Shown piece by piece: positions 3,186 through 25,247 of a stretch of 64,000 nucleotides of DNA. The stretch comes from Sulfurospirillum multivorans DSM 12446 (lineage in GTDB: Bacteria > Campylobacterota > Campylobacteria > Campylobacterales > Sulfurospirillaceae). Each line of letters starts with the position of its first letter. Position 1 is the stretch's first letter. The notes under the pieces are model-generated. The model ran no database searches, had not been told where the DNA came from, and saw only the letters and a list, made by a program, of their open reading frames with translations. The translations under genes and the position numbers were made by a program. Location of the stretch: positions 1,364,001 through 1,428,000 of the forward strand of contig NZ_CP007201.1 of NCBI RefSeq assembly GCF_000568815.1. The letters are read 5' to 3'.

Positions 3186-4196
3186 TTACAAGCTGGATGC
3201 ATCCAAAAAAGGCTGAATGCGTTTGCGCGTTTCAGGATGACTTGCAAAAGGCGTTTTGGATGCATTGGCATCGGGGTCAATGCGCTCTAATATCGTCGCA
3301 AAATAGTGCGGAGAAATCTTCGCTTTTAAAAGTCCTTGAAGCGCAAACGCATCGGCTTCCTCTTCCATTTCCCTAGAATAGCCTTGTTGAATCAGCAACA
3401 GTGGAATGCCTGTCGCAAGGTCTGAAAACGTACTCACATCGCCTGTTATCATCACGATCAAAACACCTGAACCCATCGCTTGAAGTGCCATTTTAAGCGT
3501 ATGTGACGCGTTGATATGCCCTAGTTCATGTGCTAAAACAGCCACAATCTCAGCATCATGTTCTGCTTTTTCAACCAATTGATCAGTCACAACCATACTT
3601 TGACCCGCAAGGGCAAACGCGTTGGCGCCTAAAATTGGGCTACTGCGAAAGAGCAGTTGAAACGGAGCACAGTGAGTTGTGGCGCAAAAACGATTGAGCT
3701 GTTCCGTGATGGCCGTTTGTCGCTCTATCGGTAAAAGCGTCTCTTTGAGATACATCTTATCAAGGAGGGCAAGACTCTCTTTATCCATCATCAGTTTAAT
3801 GTTTTCAGGAACAACGCGCGCAACATAAGCGGCAACGGTGGGAATGCCGTAAAAAAATCCTGCACCCAAAAGAGCAATGGTAAAGACCAACGTCGCGAAC
3901 ACATAACGTAGTTTGCTCTCAAAATAGTGGGCAAGGTATTCAGGTGATTTTTGTTTGAGTTGCTGTTCCAGTGCACGAAGTGCCTCAAGATCATGGCTGT
4001 GTATTTCTTGATGGTGAGGAAGGTAGACGATACTGCTTGCACTGCCCACCATCGGGTCTATTTTGATCTCTTTGAGTGCAAAAGAGGAGTAGCGTGTGGG
4101 CGTGTGCATAAAAAGCTCTGTTTCGCCCACTTCAATGCTGACACTGGTGGGACGAGAAGTTTTGCCATCGAAATACTCTCCTTCAAACGTGATCAT
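3186..4196 (-). CDS. M48-family zinc metallopeptidase, membrane-anchored
   Basis: A 336-residue HtpX/Oma1-like zinc protease. The zinc-binding motif HELGH is at residues 223-227 (VLAHELGHINASH), and the third ligand is expected in EMEEEADAFAL downstream. A cytoplasmic N-terminal domain of about 95 residues precedes one membrane segment (about 99-118, VFATLVFTIALLGAGFFYG), and there may be a second hydrophobic segment after the motif (GSGVLIVMITG). The ATG overlaps the stop of the upstream DUF898 gene as ATGA, so the two are translationally coupled. By analogy with the family it may degrade misfolded membrane proteins; the substrate is unknown. Confidence 0.9.
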   Translation of the reverse strand: MITFEGEYFDGKTSRPTSVSIEVGETELFMHTPTRYSSFALKEIKIDPMVGSASSIVYLPHHQEIHSHDLEALRALEQQLKQKSPEYLAHYFESKLRYVFATLVFTIALLGAGFFYGIPTVAAYVARVVPENIKLMMDKESLALLDKMYLKETLLPIERQTAITEQLNRFCATTHCAPFQLLFRSSPILGANAFALAGQSMVVTDQLVEKAEHDAEIVAVLAHELGHINASHTLKMALQAMGSGVLIVMITGDVSTFSDLATGIPLLLIQQGYSREMEEEADAFALQGLLKAKISPHYFATILERIDPDANASKTPFASHPETRKRIQPFLDASSL

Positions 4197-5233
4197 GCCA
4201 CACCAATATCCATATCAAACAGATCTGATATTTCAGAGCCAACAGCGGTTGTTGTGGCAAACGATTGTACGGCAAATTCATCTAAATTAGCGGCAATGAT
4301 TTCAAGATGAAGTGAGCGATAACGCGCTAAACGCACACTCGCAAATGGGATGTACACTCCAAACGTGATCATAATCAGCAAAAGATTGGTGGCATAAATC
4401 CATAAAACATCACGAACGCGTTGGGTTGAATGAAAACGAACGTCTTCTAAATGCAGATGGTTGTAAAAAAGATTGATCGTTTGTGTTTTGATGATAGCGA
4501 CGGCGATGGGAATCGTGATATAAAAGGCTAAGAGCCCAACTGAGATCGCCAGCCCAATCATCTGTTTGTGTGTCTCAGGTGAAAGGGCAGGATGCGTTAC
4601 CATGTAAGCATAAATCAGTGCCCCTATCATGCCCCAAACCACAGCTAAAAAGGCGAGGGTGAAAAGATAGAGTTTCCAAAAAGGTTTTGATGATCCACTG
4701 TAAGAAGTTGTTGTCGTACCATACGCATAATGAGTGGCTAAAAATTTGAGTTGCGTGTAGGCAACATAAGGCAAAGCAAGTCCAAAGGTGATGATGGTAA
4801 GAACAGGCATTAAAAGGTACACTTTTGCCGCTTCTCCTACCGTTCCCGTAAAATTAAATCGCAACCCTCGATAGGCACTTTGGCGTGCGCCAAAACGAAG
4901 GGCAGCAACAATAATCCATGGTGAAGCGATACCAATGGCGACAATGATAAGCGTACTCACCAGCGGTGCAAATTTGGATGTTCCCACATAAAGAATCAAC
5001 AGTGTTGCCGCAATCAACCTTCCTTTGAGAATTTGCATGGGTGTCGCTAAATACGAAAAGGAGTGGTTATCCAAAAACGTATGCCCATAAAACCAGCGCA
5101 TGGTTCGTACTTTTGCCCACGCAGAGTAAATCCCAAGTGTAATGATGCTCAGCGCAATATTGACAATCCAGATGCGAAAATATTCGCTACCACGTCCCGT
5201 AAAATCCACAGCGTAATGTTTGATTGAATGCAT
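4193..5233 (-). CDS. YjgN/DUF898 multi-pass membrane protein
   Basis: A 346-residue membrane protein of the DUF898 (YjgN) family. The start is set at the ATG at 5233, preceded by AAAGGATTAGG; an upstream in-frame extension exists but begins with unlikely sequence. Family signs are the repeated unit FTGRGSEYFRIWIVNIALSI and FNFTGTVGEAAKVYLL, and the motifs LGIYSAWAKVR and later GVYIPFASVRLARY. Six or so hydrophobic helices are evident. DUF898 genes are commonly followed by an M48 protease gene, as here with a 4-base overlap, suggesting a shared role in the envelope. No biochemical function is known to me. Confidence 0.88.
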   Translation of the reverse strand: MHSIKHYAVDFTGRGSEYFRIWIVNIALSIITLGIYSAWAKVRTMRWFYGHTFLDNHSFSYLATPMQILKGRLIAATLLILYVGTSKFAPLVSTLIIVAIGIASPWIIVAALRFGARQSAYRGLRFNFTGTVGEAAKVYLLMPVLTIITFGLALPYVAYTQLKFLATHYAYGTTTTSYSGSSKPFWKLYLFTLAFLAVVWGMIGALIYAYMVTHPALSPETHKQMIGLAISVGLLAFYITIPIAVAIIKTQTINLFYNHLHLEDVRFHSTQRVRDVLWIYATNLLLIMITFGVYIPFASVRLARYRSLHLEIIAANLDEFAVQSFATTTAVGSEISDLFDMDIGVA

Positions 5234-9432: not shown

Positions 9433-10698
9433 TTGAAAAATTCACTCTATTTTAATATTAAAGTAGAAGAGGGCATCTTTGAAAAAATCGTGGCTGAACA
9501 GGACACCATTGGCTATTACGCCTTGCCCGATCAAGAGATTACCGATCTTGTAAATTACCTAGAAGAGTTTAAATCTAAAAATGATTACGATGCGATCAAA
9601 GATATCGCTATTATCGGTATCGGGGGAAGTTCATTAGGGCCTAAAGCGATTTTTAGAGCACTTCAAGGTATTCGTGATTTCGACAAACGATTGCACCTTT
9701 TTGAGAGTACTGATCCTGCGTCTATTCGCTCCACGCTCAATAAACTGGACATCAAAAACACTCACTTTTTTGTCATCAGTAAATCAGGTTCAACGATCGA
9801 GACCATTTCGGTTTACAAATACATTCTTTCCTTGTTAAAAGCCAAAGAGATTTCCCTCGATTATCGCTTCACCTTTGTCACCGATAGTGGCTCAAAACTC
9901 GAAGCCCATGCCAAAACATTGAACTCATTTATTTTACATATTCCTCTCAATGTCGGCGGACGTTTTTCCGTTTTAAGTGCCGCAGGTCTTGCACCATTGC
10001 TTTTGGTGGGTGTGGATATTCAACGCTTACTAGATGGTGCCAAAGCGATTAAAAAAAGCTTCTTTGAAGATGGTTACATCAAAGAGACACTGTTGAAAAA
10101 AGCGACCTACTACGCTAAAAATTCGATGCACTACAACATCAACACCCTTTTTGCGTACTCCGAGAGTTTGGACAGTTTTACCGACTGGTATGTGCAACTT
10201 TGGGGAGAGAGTTTGGGTAAAAAACAAAAACACAGCAGCTTTAACGTGGGTCTTACCCCTGTTGGGCTTATTGGCCCCAAAGATCAACACTCTTTTTTAC
10301 AGCTCATTGTTGAAGGGCTTCGCGATAAAAGTGTGACCGTGCTTAAAATCGAAAACTTTGATGACAAAATCAAGATTCCTTCCATTACACTCAAAGAGCT
10401 TGAGAGCTTGGATTTGATGAATGGTATTGCGTTTTGTGACCTCATTAACATGCAAGCTGATTCAACGATTGAGGCACTTTTGGATAAAAAAGATATTCCA
10501 ATCGACACCATTACCCTTCAACACATTGATGAAGCAAACATTGGAAAGTTAATTTTCTACTATGAGCTTTTAACCTCGCTTGTTGGTCAAATGATGAATG
10601 TCAATACCTACGATCAACCCGGTGTTGAGAGTGGTAAGAAGATATTGGAAGGTAAATTGATCGAAGAGAGAAAGAGTTTTCCTAAAAAAGGAAAATAA
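9433..10698 (+). CDS. pgi: Glucose-6-phosphate isomerase
   Basis: Converts glucose-6-phosphate and fructose-6-phosphate in glycolysis/gluconeogenesis. The TTG at 9433 follows TGGAGGATAC, a strong ribosome binding site; the product is 421 residues, the short PGI form of many bacteria. Seen: the sugar-phosphate segment IGIGGSSLGPKAIF, SKSGSTIET (SIS-domain phosphate loop), VGGRFSVLSAAGL, the catalytic-Glu region LWGESLGKK, and NTYDQPGVESGK near the C-terminus. It stands alone and ends at a strong shared hairpin with the convergent TerB-like gene. A mutarotase for the same substrate class is encoded 7 kb upstream. Confidence 0.94.
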   Translation: MKNSLYFNIKVEEGIFEKIVAEQDTIGYYALPDQEITDLVNYLEEFKSKNDYDAIKDIAIIGIGGSSLGPKAIFRALQGIRDFDKRLHLFESTDPASIRSTLNKLDIKNTHFFVISKSGSTIETISVYKYILSLLKAKEISLDYRFTFVTDSGSKLEAHAKTLNSFILHIPLNVGGRFSVLSAAGLAPLLLVGVDIQRLLDGAKAIKKSFFEDGYIKETLLKKATYYAKNSMHYNINTLFAYSESLDSFTDWYVQLWGESLGKKQKHSSFNVGLTPVGLIGPKDQHSFLQLIVEGLRDKSVTVLKIENFDDKIKIPSITLKELESLDLMNGIAFCDLINMQADSTIEALLDKKDIPIDTITLQHIDEANIGKLIFYYELLTSLVGQMMNVNTYDQPGVESGKKILEGKLIEERKSFPKKGK

Positions 10699-10711
10699 TA
10701 GTGCAAGTCCC

Positions 10712-10737
10712 GTGTAAACGCCCAAAGGCGTTTACAC
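10712..10737. terminator. Bidirectional hairpin between pgi and the TerB-like gene
   Basis: Perfect 11-bp stem GTGTAAACGCC / GGCGTTTACAC with loop CAAA, immediately adjacent to the stop codon of the convergent gene at 10738. Its position suits a terminator for both strands. Confidence 0.85.
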
Positions 10738-11136
10738 TTAATCTGCTGTAAAAACCATCGCTTGTTCGTATAGCGCTGAGCCCATTTTCCCCCACATCGA
10801 AAAAAGGTGCATCTCTCTTTCTGAAATGTTGAAAATATGTGCGATTTTATCCATTGTTTTATGCTCATAAATGCCAAATTTGTCATCAACATGCACCAAC
10901 ACCATTAACGCTAGAATGGTGATTTTTCGGCTTTGCATCGATCTAAAGGTCTCCAACGTCTCTTCTAAATTGAAGGATTCTAAATTAATTTCCATATTTT
11001 CAATGCCCATCTCGGTACAGTATTCATCGACCAATTCGCGCTCTTTGAGCCCATATTCCCCATCGAGTTTCGCAACATACTGTGCGAGTTGTAAAAAAGC
11101 AAATTTTTCTTCAGCTTTTAGTTTCATAAGTAACAA
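10738..11136 (-). CDS. TerB-like (tellurite-resistance fold) small helical protein
   Basis: A 132-residue all-helical protein resembling the TerB/DjlA N-terminal fold: LQLAQYVAKLDGEYGLKERELVDEYCTEMGI, then a second pseudo-repeat LVHVDDKFGIYEHKTMDKIAHIF, each with acidic residues in the inter-helix turn (D-x-x-[YF]-G) that in TerB bind metal. The TTG at 11136 is favoured because AAAGGAG sits six bases upstream; an ATG three codons on is the alternative. It is divergent from the TetR gene. Function is unknown. I rate the fold assignment as probable, the role as open. Confidence 0.6.
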   Translation of the reverse strand: MLLMKLKAEEKFAFLQLAQYVAKLDGEYGLKERELVDEYCTEMGIENMEINLESFNLEETLETFRSMQSRKITILALMVLVHVDDKFGIYEHKTMDKIAHIFNISEREMHLFSMWGKMGSALYEQAMVFTAD

Positions 11137-11183
11137 TTCGTACTCCTTTGAGATTCAATCAGAGAAATTATAGTCAAACATTT

Positions 11184-11193
11184 TAAATGAATA
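11184..11193. promoter_or_regulatory. Half-site TAAATGAATA shared with the hydA promoter
   Basis: The ten bases TAAATGAATA lie 52 bases upstream of the TetR start and are repeated exactly at 14199-14208 upstream of hydA, where they open a full inverted repeat. Here the right arm is degenerate (TTAAT). It could be a weak autoregulatory site for the TetR protein; chance identity in AT-rich DNA is the alternative. Confidence 0.3.
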
Positions 11194-11244
11194 TTAATAA
11201 AGATGGTAAAATAAGCAAAACGACACTTTGGAAGGATCACACAC

Positions 11245-11829
11245 GTGGATAAAAAATTACGCAAAAGTGAAAAGATTTTAGATGCGGCGTTAATGCTCTT
11301 TTCAACACGAGGTTTTTATGCCACAACGATTCCCGACATCGCCAAAGCAATGGGCATGAGTGTGGGGAATATGTATAACTATTTTTCCTCCAAAGAGATG
11401 CTTGCCAAAGAGATCATCAAATACTCTTCCGATATTTTAGGCGCTGAGATCCGCCTCGTTAATGAAGAAGAGGGAAACGCGAAGGAGAAGATTCGAAAGA
11501 TTGTGGCACTCTATTTTGAGATGGCTTCTTCAAAACCACAACACATCAACTACTTTTTACGTGTCTACCTTGCCAATAGGGAAGTCTTCAAAGAGGGATG
11601 CGAAGGGATGCTGTGCGTCTCATCGTTTGTGACCGAACTGATGATCTTTTTTGAAGAGGGAGTGGCGCGTGGGGAACTTCGCAATCAAGATTTTTTCTCT
11701 GCATTTGGGCTGTTTATGGGCTATTTGGGTGGGTTTGTTTTTTTAAGTGGGGAAGGTGTTTTGGAAAAAGATCTTAACCATTATGTCGATGAGATTGCGC
11801 TCAATATCTACAACGCGCTCAAACACTAA
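11245..11829 (+). CDS. TetR/AcrR-family regulator, first gene of a hydrogenase operon
   Basis: A 194-residue repressor-type protein. The N-terminal helix-turn-helix is clear (KILDAALMLFSTRGFYATTI followed by DIAKAMGMSVGNMYNYFSSK). The C-terminal ligand domain begins at about residue 60 and contains three cysteines or so (EGCEGMLCVSSF), which could serve redox or metal sensing. GTG start at 11245 after GAAGGATC. Its stop overlaps the ATG of the hydrogenase small subunit by one base, so the regulator and hydrogenase are made together. Its likely targets are its own operon and the hydABC operon downstream, where a TetR-style palindrome is seen at 14203-14216. Confidence 0.9.
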   Translation: MDKKLRKSEKILDAALMLFSTRGFYATTIPDIAKAMGMSVGNMYNYFSSKEMLAKEIIKYSSDILGAEIRLVNEEEGNAKEKIRKIVALYFEMASSKPQHINYFLRVYLANREVFKEGCEGMLCVSSFVTELMIFFEEGVARGELRNQDFFSAFGLFMGYLGGFVFLSGEGVLEKDLNHYVDEIALNIYNALKH

Positions 11830-12719
11830 TGTCTCAAAAATCCACTATTATCTGGCTTCAAGGTCTTACATGTAATGGTAACAGCCACTCCTTTTTTAAC
11901 TACCCACAGATGCCAAGTTTCGCCGCTTCCTTTGAAATGCTGTATCATCCGCTTTTATGCGGTGCAGAGGATTTTCTAAGCTTCCTTAAGAGCGATACAA
12001 AGTTTGATTTTTTGATATTAGAGGGTGCTTTGAGCCACGATGAGAGGCTTATTGAGCGCTTTGGGATTCCGTTTCATGAAATCCTCGACACTCTTGCCTC
12101 TCGTGCCACGCATATCATCTGCGCAGGTAGTTGTGCGAGTTTTGGCGGTGTTTTTAGACTACGTGATCCACAAAAGATTACAGGCGCACTGTTTAGCGGT
12201 AAAGAAAAAGGCGGTTATTGGCTGGAGAAAAACAATGTCATTAACATCTCCGGCTGTCCCGTACATCCACGCTGGTTGGTGGAGACACTTTTAGCGTTGC
12301 ATGTGGGTGAAAAAGTACTTCTAGATGGCTTCTTGCGCCCCAAAGAGGTCTTCTCTTATCTTGCCCATCATGGGTGTTTGCGCAACGAATATTTTGAATG
12401 GAAGGTCGATAGCAAACAGCTTGGAGAGAGAGAAGGGTGTTTGTTTTACGAACACGGCTGTTTGGGGCCAATGAGCCATGCCAATTGCAATAAGATTTTA
12501 TGGAATGGGGTGAGCTCCAAAACAAGAGCAGGTTCGCCCTGTTTAGGGTGTACAGAGTTTGACTTTCCTAGAGTTGCATTGTATGAAACCCAAAAAAATA
12601 TGTCTTTGCCTCAAACGCCTTTTGGCATCTCAAAGCGTGCGTATTACAGCCTTGCAGGTGTGGCAAAAAGTTTTAAAATCGAGAGACTTGAAAAGAAGCT
12701 GATAGATGAAGATAACTAA
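11829..12719 (+). CDS. Signal-less [NiFe] hydrogenase small subunit (HupS/HupU-like)
   Basis: A 296-residue electron-transfer subunit with three FeS-cluster regions and no Tat signal, so cytoplasmic. Cluster ligands seen: LTCNGNSHS, CAGSCASFGG and ISGCPVHP for the proximal cluster; GCLFYEHGCLGPMSHANC and SPCLGC for the others. The usual proximal CxxC is CNGN here, with Asn replacing the second Cys; as I recall cyanobacterial-type HupS has the same change. The C-terminus lacks a membrane anchor. The ATG overlaps the TetR stop, and the large subunit starts 14 bases before its end. This points to group 2-like uptake or H2-sensing enzymes rather than a respiratory one. One TTACATGTAA copy (11866) encodes the Thr-Cys of the first cluster motif. 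Confidence 0.87.
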   Translation: MSQKSTIIWLQGLTCNGNSHSFFNYPQMPSFAASFEMLYHPLLCGAEDFLSFLKSDTKFDFLILEGALSHDERLIERFGIPFHEILDTLASRATHIICAGSCASFGGVFRLRDPQKITGALFSGKEKGGYWLEKNNVINISGCPVHPRWLVETLLALHVGEKVLLDGFLRPKEVFSYLAHHGCLRNEYFEWKVDSKQLGEREGCLFYEHGCLGPMSHANCNKILWNGVSSKTRAGSPCLGCTEFDFPRVALYETQKNMSLPQTPFGISKRAYYSLAGVAKSFKIERLEKKLIDEDN

Positions 12720-14049
12720 AGAGATTATACAGCGCATAGAGGGCGAAGCGACCTTGGAGTTGGAGTGGGAAGAGCAGAGAGTCAGCTTTGCTCGCATTAA
12801 ATTTTTTAATTACCGTGGCATTGAAGAGATTTTGCAAAAGCGCCCTATTTTAGATGCGTTGGCTTTAACGCCCAGAGTGTGTGGTATCTGTTCTCATTCG
12901 CACGCCATCGCCTCTGTACATGCCATTGAAGCGTGTTATAAAAATGCAGGCGAGCGTTTACATGTAAGCCAAAAAGCCAAAGATATTCGTGAAATCGCCC
13001 TCAATGCTGAGAAGATTCACAACCACATCAAATGGTATTTTTTCACTATTTTACCAGAGCTTAAACGCGTTTCTAACCCAACCTATCACGGCAATGCTTT
13101 TAAAGAGAAGCAGTGGTTCCACGCACAAAATGCGATTATGGAGACGCTTAAAATGAGTGCTCATTTTACAGGGCAGTGGCCGCATGGCTCGTTTGTGATG
13201 GCAGGAGGCGTGACGTGTGATCCCCTTAAAAGTGATGTTCTCAGTGCACTTGGCTGTTTAGATGCGGTGATTGCTTTTTGCGAAGAGCATTTTTACGGGA
13301 TGCGTTTGGAAGAGTTATTGGAGTTTGATTCTGCCTTGCAGGTGATGTCGGCACCTTCAGCGCTCTCTCACGGCATTGATGAGATGCTCAAACACGGTTT
13401 TGATCGTTTAGGACGTAGTTTTGATCGCTTTTTAGCGTTAGGTGAGTCTTACATGTACGAAGGAAGTCTCAAAGCCTCCAAAACAACCGTACTGAGTGCG
13501 GATGTCAAATACGTACATGAGAGTTTGGAACACACTTTTTTTGAAGACAAACACAAAGGCTATACCTATTCCAAAAGTGCGATGTACAAAAAGAGTTTTT
13601 GTGAAGTAGGCCCAATGGCACGTTTAATGGTGGCAAAAGAGCCGCTGATGCGTGATTTTCACCGCAGATTTAAAGACGCATCACTCACACGCGTGGTGGC
13701 ACGTGCCGTTGAATGTGCCCATTTGCTCTGGCGCACCAAGCATCTTTTAGAGCGTTTAAACCTCAAAGAGCCCTCTTTTATTCCACCCAAAAAAGAGATT
13801 CACAGTTTAAGTGGCGAGGGAATGGGCGTGGTCGAAGCACCACGTGGATCACTCATCCATCATGTAAAAGTGCATCAAGGGATGATTCAATCGTATGATA
13901 TTATCACGCCAACGGTTTGGAATTTAGGTAACGGTGATAAGCAAAATCCATCCACGGCACAAAAAGCACTTATTGGTCTACATTCGTTTACCAAAGCCGA
14001 CTTTATCCTCAAAAGTTTTGACGTTTGTTCGGTCTGTACCACCCAATAG
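12706..14049 (+). CDS. [NiFe] hydrogenase large subunit without cleavable C-terminus
   Basis: A 447-residue catalytic subunit. The N-terminal nickel motif RVCGICSHSH is intact (Cys59, Cys62). The C-terminal motif is FDVCSVCTTQ and the protein stops there: the two Cys (441, 444) remain, but the Pro of DPC is Val, the final His is Gln, and no tail follows for a maturation protease to remove. In known H2-sensing hydrogenases the large subunit likewise lacks the tail. It is translationally coupled to the small subunit (14-base overlap). No PAS-type kinase of the HupT/HoxJ kind is nearby; the operon partner is a TetR regulator. It could be a sensor, or a cytoplasmic uptake enzyme assembled without proteolysis. 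Confidence 0.88.
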   Translation: MKITKEIIQRIEGEATLELEWEEQRVSFARIKFFNYRGIEEILQKRPILDALALTPRVCGICSHSHAIASVHAIEACYKNAGERLHVSQKAKDIREIALNAEKIHNHIKWYFFTILPELKRVSNPTYHGNAFKEKQWFHAQNAIMETLKMSAHFTGQWPHGSFVMAGGVTCDPLKSDVLSALGCLDAVIAFCEEHFYGMRLEELLEFDSALQVMSAPSALSHGIDEMLKHGFDRLGRSFDRFLALGESYMYEGSLKASKTTVLSADVKYVHESLEHTFFEDKHKGYTYSKSAMYKKSFCEVGPMARLMVAKEPLMRDFHRRFKDASLTRVVARAVECAHLLWRTKHLLERLNLKEPSFIPPKKEIHSLSGEGMGVVEAPRGSLIHHVKVHQGMIQSYDIITPTVWNLGNGDKQNPSTAQKALIGLHSFTKADFILKSFDVCSVCTTQ

Positions 14050-14198
14050 CAAGATGGTTCCATGTGTGACAATTTAGCCATTTTTAATACAATACACTTT
14101 TTATCTTCTTTTTTTGTTACCTTTCTACTCCGTTGATTTAAAATCTCCTGAATAATGTGCCTTACTAGCATAATATGAAATATTTTTTGATTTAATAC

Positions 14199-14218
14199 TA
14201 AATGAATACTCATTCAGG
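14199..14218. promoter_or_regulatory. Candidate TetR-type operator in the hydA promoter region
   Basis: Inverted repeat TGAAT-ACTC-ATTCA at 14203-14216, 76 bases upstream of the hydA start, in a 242-base gap that otherwise shows AT-rich promoter-like DNA (TTTAATACTAAA just before the repeat). The arms resemble TGAATGA..TCATTCA operators bound by several TetR/AcrR proteins. The TetR gene two genes upstream shares TAAATGAATA in its own promoter. Confidence 0.45.
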
Positions 14219-14291
14219 TAAAGAAAATTTGTCTATTATCTGAATGATACCTTAATGTTTTGATCTTGGAAAATTTACACAGGAGAAATTT

Positions 14292-15449
14292 ATGGAACAC
14301 GCGAAACTGTACGAAAGGCTTGCTGAGAGACTGAGCAATCTTGAGAAGTTCCCCCGTATTAAGGAGGAAAAATCTATTGCGGCACTGATGGAAGAACATG
14401 GCATCAACCGTAGAGATTTTATGAAGTGGGCAGCAGGCGTTACTGCTATGTTGTCGTTACCTTCAACATTTACACCATTGATGGCACAAGCGGCTGAATT
14501 GACGGATCGTTTGCCAGTTATTTGGTTGCATATGGCTGAGTGTACGGGCTGTAGTGAGAGTTTGCTTAGAACGGATGCTCCTACCATTGATAGTTTGATT
14601 TTTGATCACATTTCACTCGAGTACCATGAGACATTGATGGTCGCCTGTGGATGGCAAGCAGAGCACAATTTAGAGAGTGCGATTGAGAAATACAAGGGCA
14701 AATATATTTTAATGGTTGAAGGTGGTATTCCTGCGGGCAGTAGTGAATTCTTCTTAACCGTTGGACCTCATGGTCAAACAGGACAAGCAAGCGCTAAAAA
14801 AGCTTCTGAATCAGCGGCAGCTATTTTTGCCATTGGCTCCTGTTCAAGTTTTGGTGGTATCCAAGCGGCTCATCCAAACCCAACCAATGCACAACCACTG
14901 AGCAAAATTACCAATAAACCCGTTATTAACGTTCCAGGTTGTCCTCCAAGTGAGAAAAATATCGTCGGTAACGTGCTTCATTACATTCTTTTTGGCACAC
15001 TTCCAGCACTCGATGCGTATAACCGTCCAAAATGGGCTTACGGTCTTAGAATTCATGATCTTTGCGAAAGACGCGGTCACTTTGACGCGGGCGAATTCGT
15101 TCAAGAATTCGGTGATGCCGGTGCTAAAAAAGGCTTCTGTCTTTATAAAGTGGGTTGTAAAGGCCCTTATACGTTTAACAACTGTTCACGTGAGAGATTT
15201 AACCAACATACTTCTTGGCCCGTTCAAGCAGGTCATGGCTGTATCGGTTGTTCCGAACCAGGATTTTGGGATAACATGGGACCATTTGAAGAACCTCTAG
15301 GGGATAGACTCTATCATACCGTTTATGGTGAAGGTGCTGATAAAACTGCTGATAAAGTAGGCGTAGCGCTTTTGACAGTAACTGCGGTAGGTATTGCGGC
15401 TCATGCGGCGATTGCTGCGGTTAAGGGCAGTGGAAAAACTGAAGAATAA
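14292..15449 (+). CDS. hydA: Periplasmic membrane-bound [NiFe] uptake hydrogenase, small subunit
   Basis: A 385-residue electron-transfer subunit that passes electrons from H2 through three FeS clusters to cytochrome b (HydC). A long n-region ends in the Tat motif RRDFMK (Arg40-Arg41), followed by a hydrophobic stretch and a probable cleavage site after MAQA. Cluster ligands: ECTGCSES, IGSCSSFGG and VPGCPPSE (proximal), then HDLCERRGHF, GFCLYKVGCKGPYTFNNC and GHGCIGCSEPGFW. The extra cysteines of oxygen-tolerant enzymes next to the proximal cluster are absent, so it should be oxygen-sensitive. A C-terminal hydrophobic helix (about 355-376) anchors it. AGGAG precedes the ATG. First gene of hydABCDE. 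Confidence 0.95.
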   Translation: MEHAKLYERLAERLSNLEKFPRIKEEKSIAALMEEHGINRRDFMKWAAGVTAMLSLPSTFTPLMAQAAELTDRLPVIWLHMAECTGCSESLLRTDAPTIDSLIFDHISLEYHETLMVACGWQAEHNLESAIEKYKGKYILMVEGGIPAGSSEFFLTVGPHGQTGQASAKKASESAAAIFAIGSCSSFGGIQAAHPNPTNAQPLSKITNKPVINVPGCPPSEKNIVGNVLHYILFGTLPALDAYNRPKWAYGLRIHDLCERRGHFDAGEFVQEFGDAGAKKGFCLYKVGCKGPYTFNNCSRERFNQHTSWPVQAGHGCIGCSEPGFWDNMGPFEEPLGDRLYHTVYGEGADKTADKVGVALLTVTAVGIAAHAAIAAVKGSGKTEE

Positions 15450-15464
15450 GAGAAGGATAAGTAA

Positions 15465-17213
15465 ATGAGTAAAAGAATCGTAGTCGATCCAATAACCAGA
15501 ATCGAAGGGCATTTAAGGGTTGAAGTTATCGTTGATGATAACAATGTTGTAACAGAAGCATACTCTTCTTCAACACTTTGGAGAGGTATCGAAACCATTT
15601 TAAAAGGTAGAGATCCAAGAGATGCTGGTTTTATGACCCAAAGAATTTGTGGTGTTTGTACCTACTCACACTACAAAGCAGGCATTGTGGCGGTTGAAGA
15701 TGCGCTTGGAATTGAGCCTCCACTTAATGCAAAATTGACACGCACGTTGATGAACTGTGCGCTTTTTTTACATGACCATCCTGTTCATTTTTATCATCTC
15801 CATGGACTTGACTGGGTCGATGTTGTCTCAGCACTTAAAGCCGATCCACACAAAGCAGCCGCTGAGTCATTTAAATACACCGATGCGCCTATTGCATGTG
15901 GTGCTGATGATCTTGTTGCAACCCAAAAGAGAGTAGCGGAATTTGTTAAAAAAGGTCACCTTGGACCATTCGCAAATGCGTACTGGGGACATGCAACCTA
16001 TAAATTAACACCGGAACAAAATCTTATTGCCGTTTCTCATTACTTAAAAGCACTCGAAATGCAACGTGTTGCGGCACAAATGATGGCAGTATTTGGTGCC
16101 AAACAACCGCATCCACAAAGCTTAACTGTTGGTGGTGTTACCTGTGTTATGGACCTTCAAACCCCTTCACGTTTAGGTGAATTTATGACGAAATTCAAAG
16201 AAATTGCGGATTTTGTGAATCGTGCGTACTATCCTGATCTTGTTATGGCGGGACTTGCCTATGCAGGTGAGCCAAGTGTTACTGGTGGTCTTGGTGTTGC
16301 AAACCTTTGGACGCATCAAGAATTCCAAATTAATGCAAAAGAGTTTTTGTTTGAGAGCGGACTGATGATGGCTGAAGATGTGGTCAATTTAATTACAGGG
16401 AAACCTTTCAAAGTTCAAACACTTGATGAAAGCAAAATTACCGAAGAAGCAACCCACGCATGGTACAAAGACAATGCCGCTTATCATCCGTATGAAGGTC
16501 GTCAAGAGCCTAACTATACAGGCTTTAAAGATGCTCAAACCATTAATGACAAAGGTGTTTTGGCTCCGACTAAAGTTATTGATGAAAAGGGTAAATACAC
16601 ATGGGTGAAAGCACCTCGTTATGATGGTAAACCACTTCAAGTAGGACCATTGGCAAACATTGTTATCAATTATGCGCTTGGCAACAAACGTGTTAAAGCC
16701 GTTGTTGATAAGTTCTTAAAAGATACAGGTCTTCCTATTACTGCCGTTGCATCAACACTCGGTCGTACAGCGTGTCGTATGCTTGAAGCCAAAGTAATTG
16801 CAGATCATGGCTTGGAAGCATTTACCGCATTGATTCAAAACCTTAAAGTCGATGATTCTACATGTACAAGTTACAAGATTGATAAAAACAAAGAGTACAA
16901 AGGTCGTTACATTGGCAACGTGCCAAGAGGTGTTTTGAGTCACTGGGTCAAAATCAAAAATGGTGTGATCGAAAACTATCAAGCCGTTGTTCCAACCACA
17001 TGGAATGCAAGTCCAAAAGATGCAAAAGGTGTTAGAGGTTCATACGAAGAGTCTTTGATCGGCTTAAAGATCACCGATCTTTCTCAACCACTTGAAATCG
17101 TAAGGATTATCCACTCTTATGATCCATGTCTTGCATGTGCAGTACACGTCATGGATACCAAAGGGAATGAGATGAGCAGTTATAAGGTCAATGTTAACGG
17201 TGCGTCTTGCTAA
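15465..17213 (+). CDS. hydB: Membrane-bound [NiFe] uptake hydrogenase, large subunit
   Basis: The 582-residue catalytic subunit that splits H2. Nickel ligands are in RICGVCTYSH (Cys62, Cys65) and DPCLACAVH (Cys555, Cys558). His561 is followed by a 21-residue tail ending NGASC, the part normally cut off by the HydD-type protease after nickel insertion. The N-terminal IEGHLRVEV motif is present. It has no signal of its own and is exported with HydA on that subunit's Tat signal. It is 15 bases after hydA, preceded by GAAGGATA. The contrast with the tail-less large subunit 1.4 kb upstream is notable. Confidence 0.96.
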   Translation: MSKRIVVDPITRIEGHLRVEVIVDDNNVVTEAYSSSTLWRGIETILKGRDPRDAGFMTQRICGVCTYSHYKAGIVAVEDALGIEPPLNAKLTRTLMNCALFLHDHPVHFYHLHGLDWVDVVSALKADPHKAAAESFKYTDAPIACGADDLVATQKRVAEFVKKGHLGPFANAYWGHATYKLTPEQNLIAVSHYLKALEMQRVAAQMMAVFGAKQPHPQSLTVGGVTCVMDLQTPSRLGEFMTKFKEIADFVNRAYYPDLVMAGLAYAGEPSVTGGLGVANLWTHQEFQINAKEFLFESGLMMAEDVVNLITGKPFKVQTLDESKITEEATHAWYKDNAAYHPYEGRQEPNYTGFKDAQTINDKGVLAPTKVIDEKGKYTWVKAPRYDGKPLQVGPLANIVINYALGNKRVKAVVDKFLKDTGLPITAVASTLGRTACRMLEAKVIADHGLEAFTALIQNLKVDDSTCTSYKIDKNKEYKGRYIGNVPRGVLSHWVKIKNGVIENYQAVVPTTWNASPKDAKGVRGSYEESLIGLKITDLSQPLEIVRIIHSYDPCLACAVHVMDTKGNEMSSYKVNVNGASC

Positions 17214-17231
17214 AGAGAAAGGGAGTCTAAG

Positions 17232-17909
17232 ATGAAAAGAGATATAGAATTTGAGTTCTCAGCAGGGCTTCGTTGGACGCACTGGCTTAGAGCAATTGCT
17301 ATTTTTGTATTAACGGTGACAGGGTTTTATTTAACCTATGTGTTCATTGCACCTGAAGCATCAGATGAGCCTATCCTCTTCTTAAATGCAAAATTCAGAA
17401 TGTGGCATGAAATCGCAGGATTTTTACTCATCGCCATTACGCTATTTAAAACATACCTCTTTTTTGCTGATCGTATCAGTTCAAAGGAGAGGGTATCGTT
17501 TTTAGATTTTGTCAGTCCAAAAGTGTGGTTTGGGCAGCTTAAATATTACCTTTTTATGGGGGAACATCCTCAGTTAAGAGGTGTGTATAATCCGTTGCAG
17601 TTTATTGCATACGTAGGTCTGTATACAATGATTTTTATCATTAGCATCACAGGTCTTATTTTGTATGTGCATTCGTATCAAGCAGGCGGTATTGGGGGCT
17701 TTTTATATGACTATATGCGCCCCATTGAAGCGATGCTTGGTGGACTTGCTATGGTAAGAGAGATTCACCATATCGTTATGTGGGGTATCTTGATCTTCTT
17801 ACCGATTCACATCTATATGGCGATCTTTAACTCCATCATGGGAAAAGAAGGTTCAATGGATGCGATTATTAGTGGTTATAAATTTCATAAACAACACCCA
17901 AAACACTAA
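17232..17909 (+). CDS. hydC: Hydrogenase cytochrome b subunit
   Basis: A 225-residue di-heme membrane subunit that takes electrons from HydA and reduces menaquinone. About four to five transmembrane helices are visible. The heme-binding histidines are expected in RWTHWLRAI (first helix), MWHEIAGFLLI, and the pair in EIHHIVMWGILIFLPIHIYMAIF near the C-terminus, as in the HyaC/HydC family. AAAGGGAG precedes the ATG, 18 bases after hydB. Together HydABC form the quinone-reactive complex known from Wolinella succinogenes. Confidence 0.93.
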   Translation: MKRDIEFEFSAGLRWTHWLRAIAIFVLTVTGFYLTYVFIAPEASDEPILFLNAKFRMWHEIAGFLLIAITLFKTYLFFADRISSKERVSFLDFVSPKVWFGQLKYYLFMGEHPQLRGVYNPLQFIAYVGLYTMIFIISITGLILYVHSYQAGGIGGFLYDYMRPIEAMLGGLAMVREIHHIVMWGILIFLPIHIYMAIFNSIMGKEGSMDAIISGYKFHKQHPKH

Positions 17910-17921
17910 GCGAGTTTTGGC

Positions 17922-18461
17922 TTGAAAGTGTTGATTTTAGGCATTGGCAATGTGATGTTCTCCGACGAAGGCGTCGGAGTGCATCTGTGCCGTCTTGTTG
18001 AACAAAAATATCAGTTTTCTTCGCCTGAGCACACGATCACGTTCGTTGATGGTGGCACCCTCGCAGAAAGATTAATCCCCGTTATTGCTGAATATGAATA
18101 CCTTGTCGTTCTTGATTGTGTGGATGCTCATGATGGAAAGATCGGTGATGTCTACTTTTTTGATTTTGACAATGTCCCCAATACCATCACCTGGCAAGGA
18201 AGCGTACATGAAGTTGAGATGCTTCAAACACTCACGATGATGGATCTCGTTGGAGATCGCCCTACCACAAAAATCGTTGGTATTATCCCAGAAGTGGTTG
18301 ATGATACAACACTGGAACTCACACCTGCTGTTTTAAAAGGAAGCGTCGTGATGGAGAGTGTTTTACTGAAACATTTGGTAGAATTAGGCTTTACGTATGA
18401 GCAAATGAGCGATATTGACATCCAAAGTGTAGCCAACCTGTCTTGTCTGGAGGATCGATGA
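17922..18461 (+). CDS. hydD: Hydrogenase large-subunit maturation protease
   Basis: A 179-residue nickel-checking endopeptidase of the HyaD/HybD (M52) family that removes the C-terminal tail of HydB. The opening LILGIGNVMFSDEGVGVHL carries the first metal-binding acidic residue (DEG motif). LVVLDCVDA and SVHEVEML supply the later Asp and His expected to hold nickel. Translation begins at a TTG (17922) or a GTG two codons later, with a weak ribosome binding site. It sits 12 bases after hydC, and the next gene's ATG overlaps its stop. No second such protease is in the window, consistent with the other large subunit needing none. Confidence 0.93.
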   Translation: MKVLILGIGNVMFSDEGVGVHLCRLVEQKYQFSSPEHTITFVDGGTLAERLIPVIAEYEYLVVLDCVDAHDGKIGDVYFFDFDNVPNTITWQGSVHEVEMLQTLTMMDLVGDRPTTKIVGIIPEVVDDTTLELTPAVLKGSVVMESVLLKHLVELGFTYEQMSDIDIQSVANLSCLEDR

Positions 18462-20113
18462 TCTTAGCCTTTGAATTTAACTATGTCTCGCATAATGGAA
18501 TTTTAGAAAATTTACTCAAAAAAATCGCGAGTGATTGTGGGATTATCCATAAAATCATTCGTAAAGAATCGATTGTAACGCTTTTTGTCGAAGCCGAGGA
18601 GACAACGTTAGGCGCGTTTGCCGATACGCTCTCCGCCTCACTACCTCTTTCCATTTTCTTTAAATCCTCCAGTGTTGAAGTTGTGGACGCCATGCCAGAT
18701 GAGGCAGAAATTTTACCTCCTCTATCGTACAACGTGGAATTTACCCCTAAAAATTTAGCGTCGGTTGATTCGCCAAGTTCGCCACAGTATCTCTCACCGA
18801 TTTTGGGTGAAAAAGAGTTACATGTAAGCCTTTTTCAAGATGATAAAGAGCTTTTACATGTAAACACATCGGCGGGTTATAAAACGCTTTATAAAAGCGT
18901 TGCTGAATTGATTTCAAGCGGTGAAAATGTGTCGATTCAAACCAAAAATGGCTCGTTTGTCTTTGGTAAAATTGAAAACAGCACTGAGTGTAAAGCCTTT
19001 GAAGTGATCGCGACCGATTTGTCGGTTGTTGAGCGCATGGTTGTGTGTAGGGAAAATGAGATCAAAGCTTTGGCTTCGTTGGAGCGTCCTGCGATTCGTT
19101 TCAAAGTCAATGCGCTGTTTGCACAAAAAGAGATTATTTCACAAGCGCGCGTGACCTTGCGCCTTGCCGATGATCTTTTCCTTTATCAGCTTTCTAAACA
19201 GCTGTTTGCAAAAGGCATTCAGTTCCTTTTCAAAGCGTCAACCTGCAAAGCACGTTACCGTGTTACATTGAATGTAACACAACAGGCTATAGAACCACTC
19301 ACCATCAGTGTGCTTGAAAATGGGGCGATTCTTATCCTCAAGGGAAGTGATTATGCTTCCACTGCCCTTAAAGCCAGTTTGAAAAAGTTTGATGAGCCTT
19401 CGCATGCAGCGTTTGCGTCCATCATGCAAGAGCATCAACTTTTTGATGCCACAACAAGCTGTTTTTACTTTAGCACCCTTCACAATGATCGCATCATGCA
19501 CTACTCGAAAGAGCATGGTATGCTCAATCTTGTGGAAATTTCACTGCCTTCTTCTTTTGAAGAACTCTTTGCCGAAGTCGAGCGCAGTAGCCCAAGTGCT
19601 GAGCGTTTAGTGGCACATTATAAAGAGCAGTTTCCTGAAATTTACGCCAAAGCAGTTGAAATTACCATTCCAAGCGATACACCAAAAAGTGTCTATTCTC
19701 TTTGGAAAATGATGGCGATAGCGTTAGGATTATGCGATGATTTTGAGCGTGCAGGTGAGCAACTTTTGGAAAATGCAGAAGATTTTGGTGGACTCAAAGG
19801 ACCACGCATTGACTACTTTTTGCAAAAAGAGGACGCTCTTAGTTCCGATCTTGATTACGTCAGAATGCTTCGCAGCGGCATGAGCTTTAAACTTGCAGGT
19901 ACCGATAACACGACGCTGAGTTTTGGGTACATGGAGAGTCTTTCGTATTTTATCTCCGATCTTGCGGATGCGCATAAAGAAAATTTAATGAGCATGAAGA
20001 TTGCATTGTGCGGTTCACTCTTTGGGTATAAACGCTTTTCAGAGATGCTCATCAAAAATCTCAAACCCAATCACACGATCTGTTTGAATAAAGAGTTGCC
20101 GATTGATCAGTAA
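18458..20113 (+). CDS. hydE: HydE, accessory protein of the hydABCDE operon
   Basis: A 551-residue cytoplasmic protein with no membrane segments, matching by position and size the HydE of Wolinella, Helicobacter and Campylobacter hydrogenase operons, needed for active hydrogenase by an unclear mechanism. ATG 18458 overlaps the hydD stop (ATGA) and follows GGAGG; a GTG 15 bases upstream is less likely. The C-terminal half carries LSSDLDYVRMLRSGMSFKLAG and LSFGYMESLSYFISDLA. Two palindrome copies 36 bases apart (18818, 18854) both read Leu-His-Val. It should not be confused with the radical SAM HydE of [FeFe] hydrogenases: no CxxxCxxC motif is seen. Confidence 0.85.
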   Translation: MILAFEFNYVSHNGILENLLKKIASDCGIIHKIIRKESIVTLFVEAEETTLGAFADTLSASLPLSIFFKSSSVEVVDAMPDEAEILPPLSYNVEFTPKNLASVDSPSSPQYLSPILGEKELHVSLFQDDKELLHVNTSAGYKTLYKSVAELISSGENVSIQTKNGSFVFGKIENSTECKAFEVIATDLSVVERMVVCRENEIKALASLERPAIRFKVNALFAQKEIISQARVTLRLADDLFLYQLSKQLFAKGIQFLFKASTCKARYRVTLNVTQQAIEPLTISVLENGAILILKGSDYASTALKASLKKFDEPSHAAFASIMQEHQLFDATTSCFYFSTLHNDRIMHYSKEHGMLNLVEISLPSSFEELFAEVERSSPSAERLVAHYKEQFPEIYAKAVEITIPSDTPKSVYSLWKMMAIALGLCDDFERAGEQLLENAEDFGGLKGPRIDYFLQKEDALSSDLDYVRMLRSGMSFKLAGTDNTTLSFGYMESLSYFISDLADAHKENLMSMKIALCGSLFGYKRFSEMLIKNLKPNHTICLNKELPIDQ

Positions 20114-22322
20114 ATCGCGTCTGATTTATCGTATAGAAGGTATTGTCCAAGGGGTTGGGTTTCGCCCCTTTGTCTATACGTTAGCCTCGCGTTACGCTCT
20201 TAGCGGGTTTGTGTTGAACAACTCTTTGGGTGTTGTTATCGAGATCGAAGGATTTGAAGAGAGCCTTAAAGCGTTTGAACTGGCTTTGTTTAAAGAGCTT
20301 CCACCTCTGGCACGCATCGATATTTACACAAAAGAAATCCTTACATGTAAAGACGATACCACGTTTGAAATCCGCCACAGCGATGAAGCAAGCACAAAAT
20401 CCTCACTGGTACTTCCTGATATGTCAATTTGCGAAGCATGTCTCAAAGAGTTGCACGACCCAACCAATCGACGCTACCACTACTTTTTCACCAACTGCAC
20501 CAATTGTGGGCCTCGCTATTCCATCATTAAAACTGTTCCATACGACCGCCCTTACACGTCGATGCAGCCTTTTGAGATGTGTGACGCGTGCAAAGAGGAA
20601 TACACCAACCCGCTAAACCGTCGTTATCACGCGCAGCCCATCAGCTGTCCAAAATGTGGCCCGACACTCTCACTGCGTTCGATGCACGGTGAATTATTGG
20701 GCGTCAATGAAGCGGCGATTCAAAAACTAGCCGAGCTGATTAACACAGGGCATATCGTTGCGATGAAAGGCATGGGTGGTTTTCATCTGATGTGCGATGC
20801 GACCAATGACGCAGTGATTGAACGTTTAAGAGAACGAAAACACAGACCTTCCAAGCCGTTTGCCGTGATGTTTAAAAGCCTTGATGCTATCAAAGAAGTG
20901 TGTGTATTAAGCCCCAAAGAAGAGGAGGGCATTGTCTCACTGCTTCGTCCAATTGTGCTCGTGAAGCGTCAAACTACCACTTCCAAAATGAGTCCACGGA
21001 TTGCGCCACGTATCGATCGTCTCGGTGTTTTTTTGCCGTACACACCTTTACATGTAATCCTTTTTGAGTACCTCAAAAATCCCATCGTGGCAACCAGTGC
21101 CAATCGTTCGGGTGAGCCAATTATCAGTGAAGCGTCTCTTCTGGTGGAAAAATTAAGCGACGTGGTGGAGTATTATCTGGATTACAATCGCGAAATTGTC
21201 AATTCAAGCGATGACAGCGTTTTACAATACTTGGGCGATAAAACACTCATTATGCGCGCATCGCGAGGTATGGCACCGCAGAGTTTTCGGGTGGACTCAA
21301 AGGATGAACGCAAAATTTTAGCCGTTGGTGCGCATCAAAAAAATGCGATCGCGATTTACCACCACCATCAAATCATCGTCAGCCCCTACATCGGCGATTT
21401 GGATAACATCGCTTCGATTGAACTGTTTGAGAAAATGATAGAGAATTTCGCCCGTTTTTATGACTTTACACCCGATCTTATTGTGGGTGATCTGCATCCC
21501 AATTACGCCTCAACCCAGTGGGCAAAGAAGCAGAAAATTCCTTTTATGCAAGTGCAACACCATTATGCGCATATTCTTTCAACGATGTTTGAGCATCATC
21601 TGAGTCAACCCGTACTGGGCATTGCGTGGGATGGTACGGGGTATGGGGATGATGGTACGATTTGGGGTGGCGAGTTTTTGGTGTGTGATCAAAATAGCTA
21701 TGAGCGTGCTGTCTCGTTTGAGCCTTTTTTACTCTTGGGAGGGGACGCGAGCATCAAAGAGATCAGACGCATTTTAGCCTCTTTGTTGTGGGACGTGTTA
21801 GGCGATGATGCTGATGCGCATCTGCTGGATTATTTCGATGAAAAATCACTCAAACTTCTTAAACAGGTTTATACCAAAAAGATCAATGCCCCACGCTGTT
21901 CTTCTGTAGGAAGACTCTTTGATGCGGTGGCTGTTTTGTGCGGTATGGAAGGCAATGTGAGTTATGATGGCGAGAGTGGTTTGCTTCTTGAAGCGCTGTA
22001 TGATCCTTTAATTACGGAATTCTATGAAGTCGAAATTGACGATAAAATAGTCTATTATAAGCCCATGTTTGCTCAAATGCTAAGAGACCAAGAACCTCGC
22101 TTGATTGCTTCAAAATTTCTCAATACTTTGGTCAAAATTCTCTGTGAGGTGCATTCGCGCTATCCATACCCCGTGGTACTAGGTGGTGGAGTGTTTCAAA
22201 ATCGCACACTTATGGAACTAATTCTTCAAAATGTCACACAAAATCTCTATTTTCCGCTACAATTAGCAATCAATGACGGCGGAATTTGTGTTGGACAGCT
22301 CTCTAAATCCCTTTTAAAATAA
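20103..22322 (+). CDS. hypF: Carbamoyltransferase HypF
   Basis: A 739-residue enzyme that makes the cyanide ligands of the NiFe site from carbamoyl phosphate, delivering thiocarboxamide to HypE. Domains in order: acylphosphatase (YRIEGIVQGVGFRPFVY, about 8-24); two zinc-finger pairs (CEACLKEL...CTNCGPRYS and CDACKEEY...CPKCGP); a YrdC-like nucleotide domain (GHIVAMKGMGGFHLMCDA...KPFAVMF); and a Kae1/TobZ-like carbamoyltransferase domain (VQHHYAHILSTMFEH, GIAWDGTGYGDDGTIWGGEF, VLGGGVFQNRTL). TTG 20103 overlaps hydE by 11 bases. It is separated from hypBCDEA by 5 kb of other genes. Two palindrome copies (20341, 21048). Confidence 0.95.
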   Translation: MISKSRLIYRIEGIVQGVGFRPFVYTLASRYALSGFVLNNSLGVVIEIEGFEESLKAFELALFKELPPLARIDIYTKEILTCKDDTTFEIRHSDEASTKSSLVLPDMSICEACLKELHDPTNRRYHYFFTNCTNCGPRYSIIKTVPYDRPYTSMQPFEMCDACKEEYTNPLNRRYHAQPISCPKCGPTLSLRSMHGELLGVNEAAIQKLAELINTGHIVAMKGMGGFHLMCDATNDAVIERLRERKHRPSKPFAVMFKSLDAIKEVCVLSPKEEEGIVSLLRPIVLVKRQTTTSKMSPRIAPRIDRLGVFLPYTPLHVILFEYLKNPIVATSANRSGEPIISEASLLVEKLSDVVEYYLDYNREIVNSSDDSVLQYLGDKTLIMRASRGMAPQSFRVDSKDERKILAVGAHQKNAIAIYHHHQIIVSPYIGDLDNIASIELFEKMIENFARFYDFTPDLIVGDLHPNYASTQWAKKQKIPFMQVQHHYAHILSTMFEHHLSQPVLGIAWDGTGYGDDGTIWGGEFLVCDQNSYERAVSFEPFLLLGGDASIKEIRRILASLLWDVLGDDADAHLLDYFDEKSLKLLKQVYTKKINAPRCSSVGRLFDAVAVLCGMEGNVSYDGESGLLLEALYDPLITEFYEVEIDDKIVYYKPMFAQMLRDQEPRLIASKFLNTLVKILCEVHSRYPYPVVLGGGVFQNRTLMELILQNVTQNLYFPLQLAINDGGICVGQLSKSLLK

Positions 22323-22324
22323 TA

Positions 22325-22349
22325 TTAATATTTGTACCTTTTAATATTT
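22325..22349. promoter_or_regulatory. Repeated TTAATATTT upstream of nikR
   Basis: Two copies of TTAATATTT (22325-22333 and 22341-22349), 16 bases apart and each containing the palindrome AATATT, lie just after the hypF stop and about 55 bases before nikR. The spacing and AT-rich dyad character are reminiscent of NikR sites in epsilonproteobacteria, so autoregulation is possible. AT-rich chance repeats are a real alternative. Confidence 0.25.
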
Positions 22350-22401
22350 AAAGATTAGTAAGATTAGAATGCAGATGAAGTCTATTAAGAAAGGATATAC
22401 C

Positions 22402-22815
22402 ATGGATAAAATTATTCGTTTTAGTGTTTCATTACCCGAAAAATTGCTAGAAGAACTTGATAAAAAAGTCGATGCACAAGGGTATGCCTCACGCAGTGAA
22501 TTTACCAGAGATCTTATTCGTGAAAAAATCGTTAAAGACGATTGGCAAGACGATAACAGCGATGTCATCGGCGTTTTGACAATGATTTATACCCATCATC
22601 AAAATGAGCTTGTTCAAAAGATTTTAGAGATTCAACACGATGCGAAAGTGAATATTATGTGTAACACACACGTACACGTCAGTCACGAAAACTGTTTAGA
22701 AACCGTTATGGTGACAGGAAAAGTTTCTGAAGTCAAAGACTTTGCACAAAAAATTGCAGGGCTTAAAGGGGTTAAATTCTCCAAACTTGTAGAGGCATCC
22801 ATCCCCGCTTCTTAA
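22402..22815 (+). CDS. nikR: Nickel-responsive regulator NikR
   Basis: A 137-residue ribbon-helix-helix repressor/activator. The start is the ATG at 22402 after AAAGGATATACC; the frame is open 11 codons upstream, but that part is unlikely. [16 protein letters not shown] followed by [11 protein letters not shown] is the DNA-binding domain. The C-terminal ACT-like domain has the four nickel ligands spaced as in E. coli NikR: His79, His90, His92 and Cys98 (IQHD...[10 protein letters not shown]). It lies directly after hypF and convergent with a TonB-dependent receptor. Nickel-dependent control of nickel uptake and of hydrogenase or receptor genes nearby is a reasonable inference. Confidence 0.95.
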
Positions 22816-22830
22816 GCTTTTTTAACGAGA

Positions 22831-22855
22831 GTGAGTAAACGTTTTGTTTACTCAC
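22831..22855. terminator. Hairpin after nikR
   Basis: Perfect 10-bp stem GTGAGTAAAC / GTTTACTCAC around GTTTT, 15 bases after the nikR stop and between convergent genes. A TTTACATGTAAA copy follows at 22861. Confidence 0.8.
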
Positions 22856-22860
22856 GTATC

Positions 22861-22872
22861 TTTACATGTAAA
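22861..22872. repeat. TTTACATGTAAA palindrome after the nikR hairpin
   Basis: Perfect copy five bases after the terminator stem and 19 bases before the stop codon of the convergent receptor gene. This repeats the hairpin-then-palindrome order seen at 3144-3183, 52254-52301 and 55144-55183. Confidence 0.9.
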
Positions 22873-22890
22873 GCATACTCCTACAAAATA

Positions 22891-25032: not shown

Positions 25033-25105
25033 ACGACTCCTTCATTAATACCTAAATATGCAATTTTTTAACTCGAATTAATCAGAATTTCCGAGAAGAT
25101 TGTGA

Positions 25106-25124
25106 TTAATTGAGAATCATTATA
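25106..25124. promoter_or_regulatory. Fur-box-like site upstream of the TonB-dependent receptor
   Basis: TTAATTGAGAATCATTATA contains GAGAATCATTAT, close to the right half of the Fur consensus (GATAATCATTATC); about 13 of 19 positions agree. It is about 75-90 bases upstream of the receptor start on the minus strand, in a 215-base gap that also holds a palindrome copy at 25232. Confidence 0.4.
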
Positions 25125-25231
25125 TTTATTTATCGTTTAAAGTTCACGTATGTTATGACGTAAAAAAGAATATTTTTAGCTATTTAAAAGGTTTTAAACA
25201 CGGAGGTAATCAAAATTTGAAGATAAAAACC

Positions 25232-25243
25232 TTTACATGTAAA
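25232..25243. repeat. TTTACATGTAAA palindrome at the 3' end of the broken permease
   Basis: Perfect copy four bases beyond the stop of the minus-strand permease pseudogene (25248), in the region between it and the receptor gene. Confidence 0.9.
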
Positions 25244-25247
25244 GCGT

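Follow-up and report, generated by a model that had tools for sequence, protein, structure and literature searches.

The HoxBC pair of Cupriavidus necator pHG1 and the HupUV pair, both of group 2b, are cytoplasmic [NiFe] hydrogenases made of a small and a large subunit and devoid of a Tat signal; in annotated plasmid records, HoxC and HupV stop directly behind the CxxC motif and have no tail to be cleaved, and it has been reported that HoxC is not processed (PMC9100943). The closest solved relatives of the hydrogenase considered here, by sequence as well as by fold, belong to group 2a (Huc), whose small subunit is the best match to HupS (7utd_B, 1.5e-51) and whose proximal-cluster motif, CNGN or CSGN, is the same as in our pair. 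Nevertheless, the large subunits of group 2a (those of loci L177, L178 and L180) carry a C-terminal tail together with an adjoining gene for a maturation protease, whereas HupL has neither such an extension nor a dedicated protease. The cytoplasmic group 2 hydrogenase of Campylobacterota has itself a disputed role, as a sensor or as a ferredoxin-linked uptake enzyme (PMC4584964), and the pair of Sulfurospirillum and Aliarcobacter has been assigned to group 2d under the name HuaSL (PMC12286921).

The window, i.e., the whole stretch of 64,000 nucleotides analyzed from the 3,175,729 bp genome of Sulfurospirillum multivorans, contains one such pair on the forward strand. It is preceded by a gene with a GTG start for a TetR-family regulator of 194 amino acids (11245–11829; TetR_N, 3.8e-17 in Pfam). 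The small subunit HupS/HuaS (SMUL_1421, 11829–12719; Pfam Oxidored_q6 and NiFe_hyd_SSU_C) presents the CNGN proximal-cluster motif, and the tail-less large subunit HupL/HuaL (SMUL_1422, 12706–14049; Pfam NiFeSe_Hases) presents the ligands C59, C62, C441 and C444. Downstream, on the same strand, lie hydA (14292–15449; small subunit of the periplasmic membrane-bound hydrogenase, with TAT_signal and small-subunit domains, TIGR00391), hydB (15465–17213; large subunit with a normal DPCLACAVH motif and a cleavable tail), hydC (17232–17909; cytochrome b subunit, TIGR02125) and hydD (17922–18461; maturation endopeptidase, TIGR00140/HycI), an operon that is the probable target of the regulator. HydD is expected to cut HydB, while HupL offers no tail for cleavage. 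The layout is that of the original prediction: the three first genes form a single overlapping operon, sharing 1 base between TetR and the small subunit and 14 bases between the two subunits; Pfam finds a Tat domain in HydA and none in HupS; and the hydABC operon, placed about 240 bases downstream, starts 242 bases past the large subunit gene. Where HoxBC has an ATP-binding kinase and a sigma-54 regulator as neighbors, HupSL has TetR, and an adjacent PAS histidine kinase with its response regulator was not found, either by domain among seven genes of the window or, in other loci, by similarity to the window proteins.

The large subunit was said to stop at its active-site motif with both Pro and His replaced, and in S. 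multivorans it indeed ends in SFDVCSVCTTQ, with Val instead of Pro, Gln instead of His and no tail. The same tail-less stop at the CxxC motif occurs in 80 of 80 loci across Campylobacterota, with CSVCTTH (43), CSVCTTQ (22), CAVCVSH (4) and CSVCTTK (3) as the main endings and eight loci with others. Thus, only part of that description is general: the tail is always lost and the Pro is changed to Val or Ile, rarely to other residues, but His is kept more often than not, Gln being mainly a variant of the Sulfurospirillum side and Lys one of a few loci, both lineage-specific. In 29 aligned sequences, the four [NiFe] cysteines (two CxxC motifs), E12 and R380 are invariant, and judged from these residues the active site of HupL is intact. 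A pseudogene or a frameshift as the cause of the absent tail was discarded given the identical end in the 80 loci; by the same comparison, the tail-less end is a fixed character and not a product of decay. In one family (f5, loci L115–L122), the large subunit ends in CAVC..H, and the sole small subunit of that family in the alignment (L116) carries CNGC as the proximal-cluster motif, compared with CNGN in most of the others.

How far the TetR gene accompanies this form of hydrogenase was surveyed in 397 Campylobacterota genomes, with 80 loci compared in detail. Of these genomes, 113 have the large subunit, 114 the TetR and 112 both, and the single genome with the large subunit alone has the locus at a contig edge. 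The order TetR-small-large is kept in the 80 loci, mostly with hydABC next, so that the expected conservation of the regulator with the tail-less form is borne out by a co-occurrence that is close to perfect. Two types of hydA adjoin the unit (about 50% or 65–99% identical) and, among the window proteins, only TetR and the hyd genes recur beside it. Mean pairwise identity descends from TetR (61%) to the small (51%) and large (44%) subunits; TetR distances correlate with those of the small (r 0.82) and large (r 0.84) subunits, and only at 0.50 with those of hydA. In the two TetR-only genomes (G347 and G143), the small and large subunit genes are absent and the TetR still stands in front of hydA; a 14-residue match to the large-subunit end after the TetR of G347 (E 0.87) is a hint only.

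Some loci lie on plasmids. One plasmid record of Sulfurimonas paralvinellae and one of Sulfurovum mangrovi have TetR and the large subunit close together, and the former (NZ_CP041407.1, 49.8 kb) bears at 10541–25290 the whole TetR-HupSL-hydABC unit plus hyp genes, with an integrase alongside, a location from which hydrogen use may be mobile. Elsewhere, two tandem TetR paralogues, one of which keeps two cysteines, directly follow hydABCDE-like genes (L168 in genome G125, 3891–5088), and plasmid pRUNSL01 of Runella slithyformis (L178, 1–1684) has a group 2a hydrogenase with two annotated TetR genes directly upstream.

The regulator itself shows the N-terminal TetR helix-turn-helix and an all-helical regulatory domain. 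Its nearest folds include FadR, and also many other members of the family; FadR of Bacillus is alike in its helix-turn-helix and fold relatives, but it is devoted to fatty-acid genes, whereas the protein described here is associated with hydrogenase genes and has an invariant Cys-x4-Cys. This pair, Cys119 and Cys124 of the regulatory domain, is present in 80 of 80 orthologues and in both genomes that have the TetR alone; most unlinked paralogues lack it. The AlphaFold model has low confidence at 115–121, the stretch that contains Cys119, with Cys124 just beyond, and a redox switch formed by these cysteines would be plausible. The persistence of the TetR and its two cysteines where the hydrogenase pair has been lost indicates that the regulator can work without HupSL, which speaks against HupSL as its sensor partner.

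Between hupL and hydA lies a palindrome, TAAATGAATACTCATTCA (14199–14216, no strand assigned), the probable TetR operator. The palindrome, with the core TNAATGANTANTCATTNA, was found by matrix scan in 67 of the 68 upstream regions of hydA adjoining the unit, with a mean of 20.9 bits, against a mean of -4.5 and a maximum of 14.1 in 1,360 shuffled controls; the matrix was built from those same 68 regions, the threshold was the 99th percentile of the shuffles, and a few of the 67 sites are weak (11–14 bits). Greater weight therefore falls on two comparisons made outside those regions. Independent of motif building are ten genomes in which hydA is remote from the unit, all ten with the palindrome (18.3–25.4 bits); in one of them (G342) the site-bearing hydA is about 753 kb away from TetR. 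Conversely, 29 of 30 hydA in TetR-less control genomes have no palindrome, although both sets consist of related genomes and the counts are not independent events. The exception (G165, locus L217) has a site of 19.5 bits and no TetR found, and its genus-mate G347 has the TetR without HupSL, a pattern that may show stepwise loss. Two same-genus genomes without the unit also retain a weak site (14.7 bits), and the sites of unit-less genomes are perhaps relics. In 968 kb, there are 97 sites of at least 12 bits, 79 of them before hydA and six before tetR, none of these six in a Sulfurospirillum locus.

At the genome scale, the strict palindrome occurs at 18 places in 33 complete genomes, more than half of them before hydA, against two for a reversed control, and only once in the 3.18 Mb of S. 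multivorans, at hydA; a looser core, TGAATNNNNATTCA, gives four occurrences in this genome against two for the reversed control and is unconvincing by itself. The shuffles, the TetR-less controls and the genome-wide counts led us to reject a chance palindrome in AT-rich DNA. Furthermore, the stretch immediately 5′ of the site is enriched in -10-like hexamers (42% versus about 14%), an arrangement that would suit repression; a scan for promoter consensus in the window alone did little better than shuffles. We take the palindrome to resemble the FadR box of Bacillus. Other strict or strong sites are found away from hydA: one precedes a gene for a NapC/NrfH-like cytochrome and a second cytochrome gene (L195, G376:C1:2216993), a possible extra target linking hydrogen to an electron acceptor, and in two loci (L189, G191:C1:2531060, and L125) a 26-bit site stands 220–260 bases after the large subunit gene with no hydA next.

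The original prediction saw in the TetR a possible partner of the hydrogenase, in a sensor perhaps controlling hydABC, and the co-occurrence, the gene order and the putative operator, also present at hydA genes hundreds of kilobases away, point in the same direction: control of hydABC by TetR is very probable on these comparative grounds. We rather favor, with less assurance, a one-component unit for hydrogen control, in which TetR would bind the 18–20 bp palindrome in the promoter of hydABC, thereby controlling, and most likely repressing, the respiratory uptake hydrogenase HydABC, while the cytoplasmic tail-less HupSL encoded in the same operon would be its sensor partner. Hydrogen would be oxidized at the intact [NiFe] site, changing the redox state of HupSL or its docking on TetR, and the altered HupSL, in physical contact with the regulator, would change how tightly TetR holds its DNA, perhaps by way of the invariant Cys-x4-Cys. 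The sensor role is suggested because the unit is locked, the tail is missing, the site is intact, soluble hydrogen uptake was not found in Sulfurimonas denitrificans and the TetR cysteines are invariant. A more specific version, in which electrons pass from HupSL to a thiol or iron-sulfur switch at Cys119-x4-Cys124 so that the hydABC promoter is released with no kinase involved, is tentative and rather doubtful.

Expression data speak on both sides. The hydB gene of S. multivorans is expressed whatever the conditions and shows no significant change with hydrogen, hupL transcripts are not detected or very low, and the same study considered that a hydrogen sensor might be missing (PMC5357620); moreover, HupSL is absent from the proteomes (PMC5357620, PMC6242987). 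These observations count against a hydrogen circuit, and can be reconciled with it if scant TetR-HupSL leaves hydABC on in cells that produce hydrogen themselves, as S. multivorans does during pyruvate fermentation (PMC6242987). With hydrogen, the two hynAB sets of Aliarcobacter butzleri hDNRA1 go up and its huaSL goes down, in an experiment where the electron donor also changed (PMC12286921); this published expression would fit hydrogen control of hydABC and not simple autorepression. A simple autoregulated repressor is at odds both with the fall of huaSL and with the rarity of sites before tetR, and this rarity led us to discard a TetR acting solely on its own operon. That the TetR gene directly 5′ of hupSL could encode a hupSL repressor had been suggested (Kruse et al. 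2017, PMC5357620), and its being the first gene of the operon and the very low hupL transcripts would agree; yet nearly all loci have a site before hydA, the six sites before tetR exclude Sulfurospirillum and the remote hydA copies carry the palindrome, which makes a regulator with no role at hydABC very improbable. It is still harder to believe in HupL as a degenerate enzyme, or an inactive one, on its way to being lost: low expression, the changed Pro and His of the S. multivorans protein and the loss of the pair in some relatives could be read in this way, but the frames are open throughout among the matches listed, the metal ligands, Glu and Arg do not vary, and the end is the same across many families.

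A more serious contender, unlikely in our view and well ahead of the two preceding ones, keeps TetR at hydABC but has it sense another signal, for instance acyl-CoA like its FadR-like relatives, HupSL being a functional uptake enzyme of the cytoplasm and a source of low-potential electrons (ferredoxin, reductive TCA cycle), a role proposed for Aquifex hydrogenase III, and the shared operon meaning only co-regulation. Such a role has been proposed (PMC4584964, PMC2628731, PMC5357620) and would be in line with the classification of the pair in group 2d (PMC12286921), the intact active site, the place of FadR among the many near folds and the retention of TetR without HupSL. Against it stand the soluble fraction of Sulfurimonas denitrificans, where no hydrogen uptake was found (PMC4149538), the single active band of S. 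multivorans, which is MBH, and the very low expression of HupSL, as well as a large subunit that evolves faster than TetR, a tail that is absent as in sensors, and a neighborhood in which nothing recurs from the window but TetR and the hyd genes. The hydrogen-sensing unit remains the reading that we prefer.

Should it be true, hydrogen sensors would come in a second design, in which the enzyme acts through a plain DNA-binding regulator instead of a two-component system, in bacteria of importance to vents, sediments and dechlorination. In the more specific version with the Cys119-x4-Cys124 switch, much of Campylobacterota would use a one-component, redox-wired sensor. In any case, a regulator, a putative operator and a target can now be named for the disputed group 2 hydrogenase of this phylum, and the question becomes directly testable.

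The likeness to HupUV/HoxBC that had been put forward holds for the absent tail, while the phylogeny leaves it as a functional analogy. In the tree, the large subunits fall together in a single deep clade outside groups 2a and 2b, separated from the latter with 100/100 support, but this tree has long branches and is missing the Aquificota 2d sequences (Aquifex hydrogenase III); a joint tail-less clade with group 2b was rejected (AU p 0.0092). The motifs differ as well, DPCMVCTVH in group 2b compared with D(V/I)C(S/A)VC here, and CGGC compared with CNGN at the proximal cluster. Therefore, HupSL may work like a regulatory hydrogenase, and its sequence does not make it a member of the HoxBC/HupUV family. 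As for group 2d, its proposed function is uptake for biosynthesis, and in the papers found by our literature search neither an operator nor a phylum-wide link to TetR is described. What is new with respect to these known systems is the co-occurrence of TetR with the large subunit, the conserved gene order and the palindrome at hydA.
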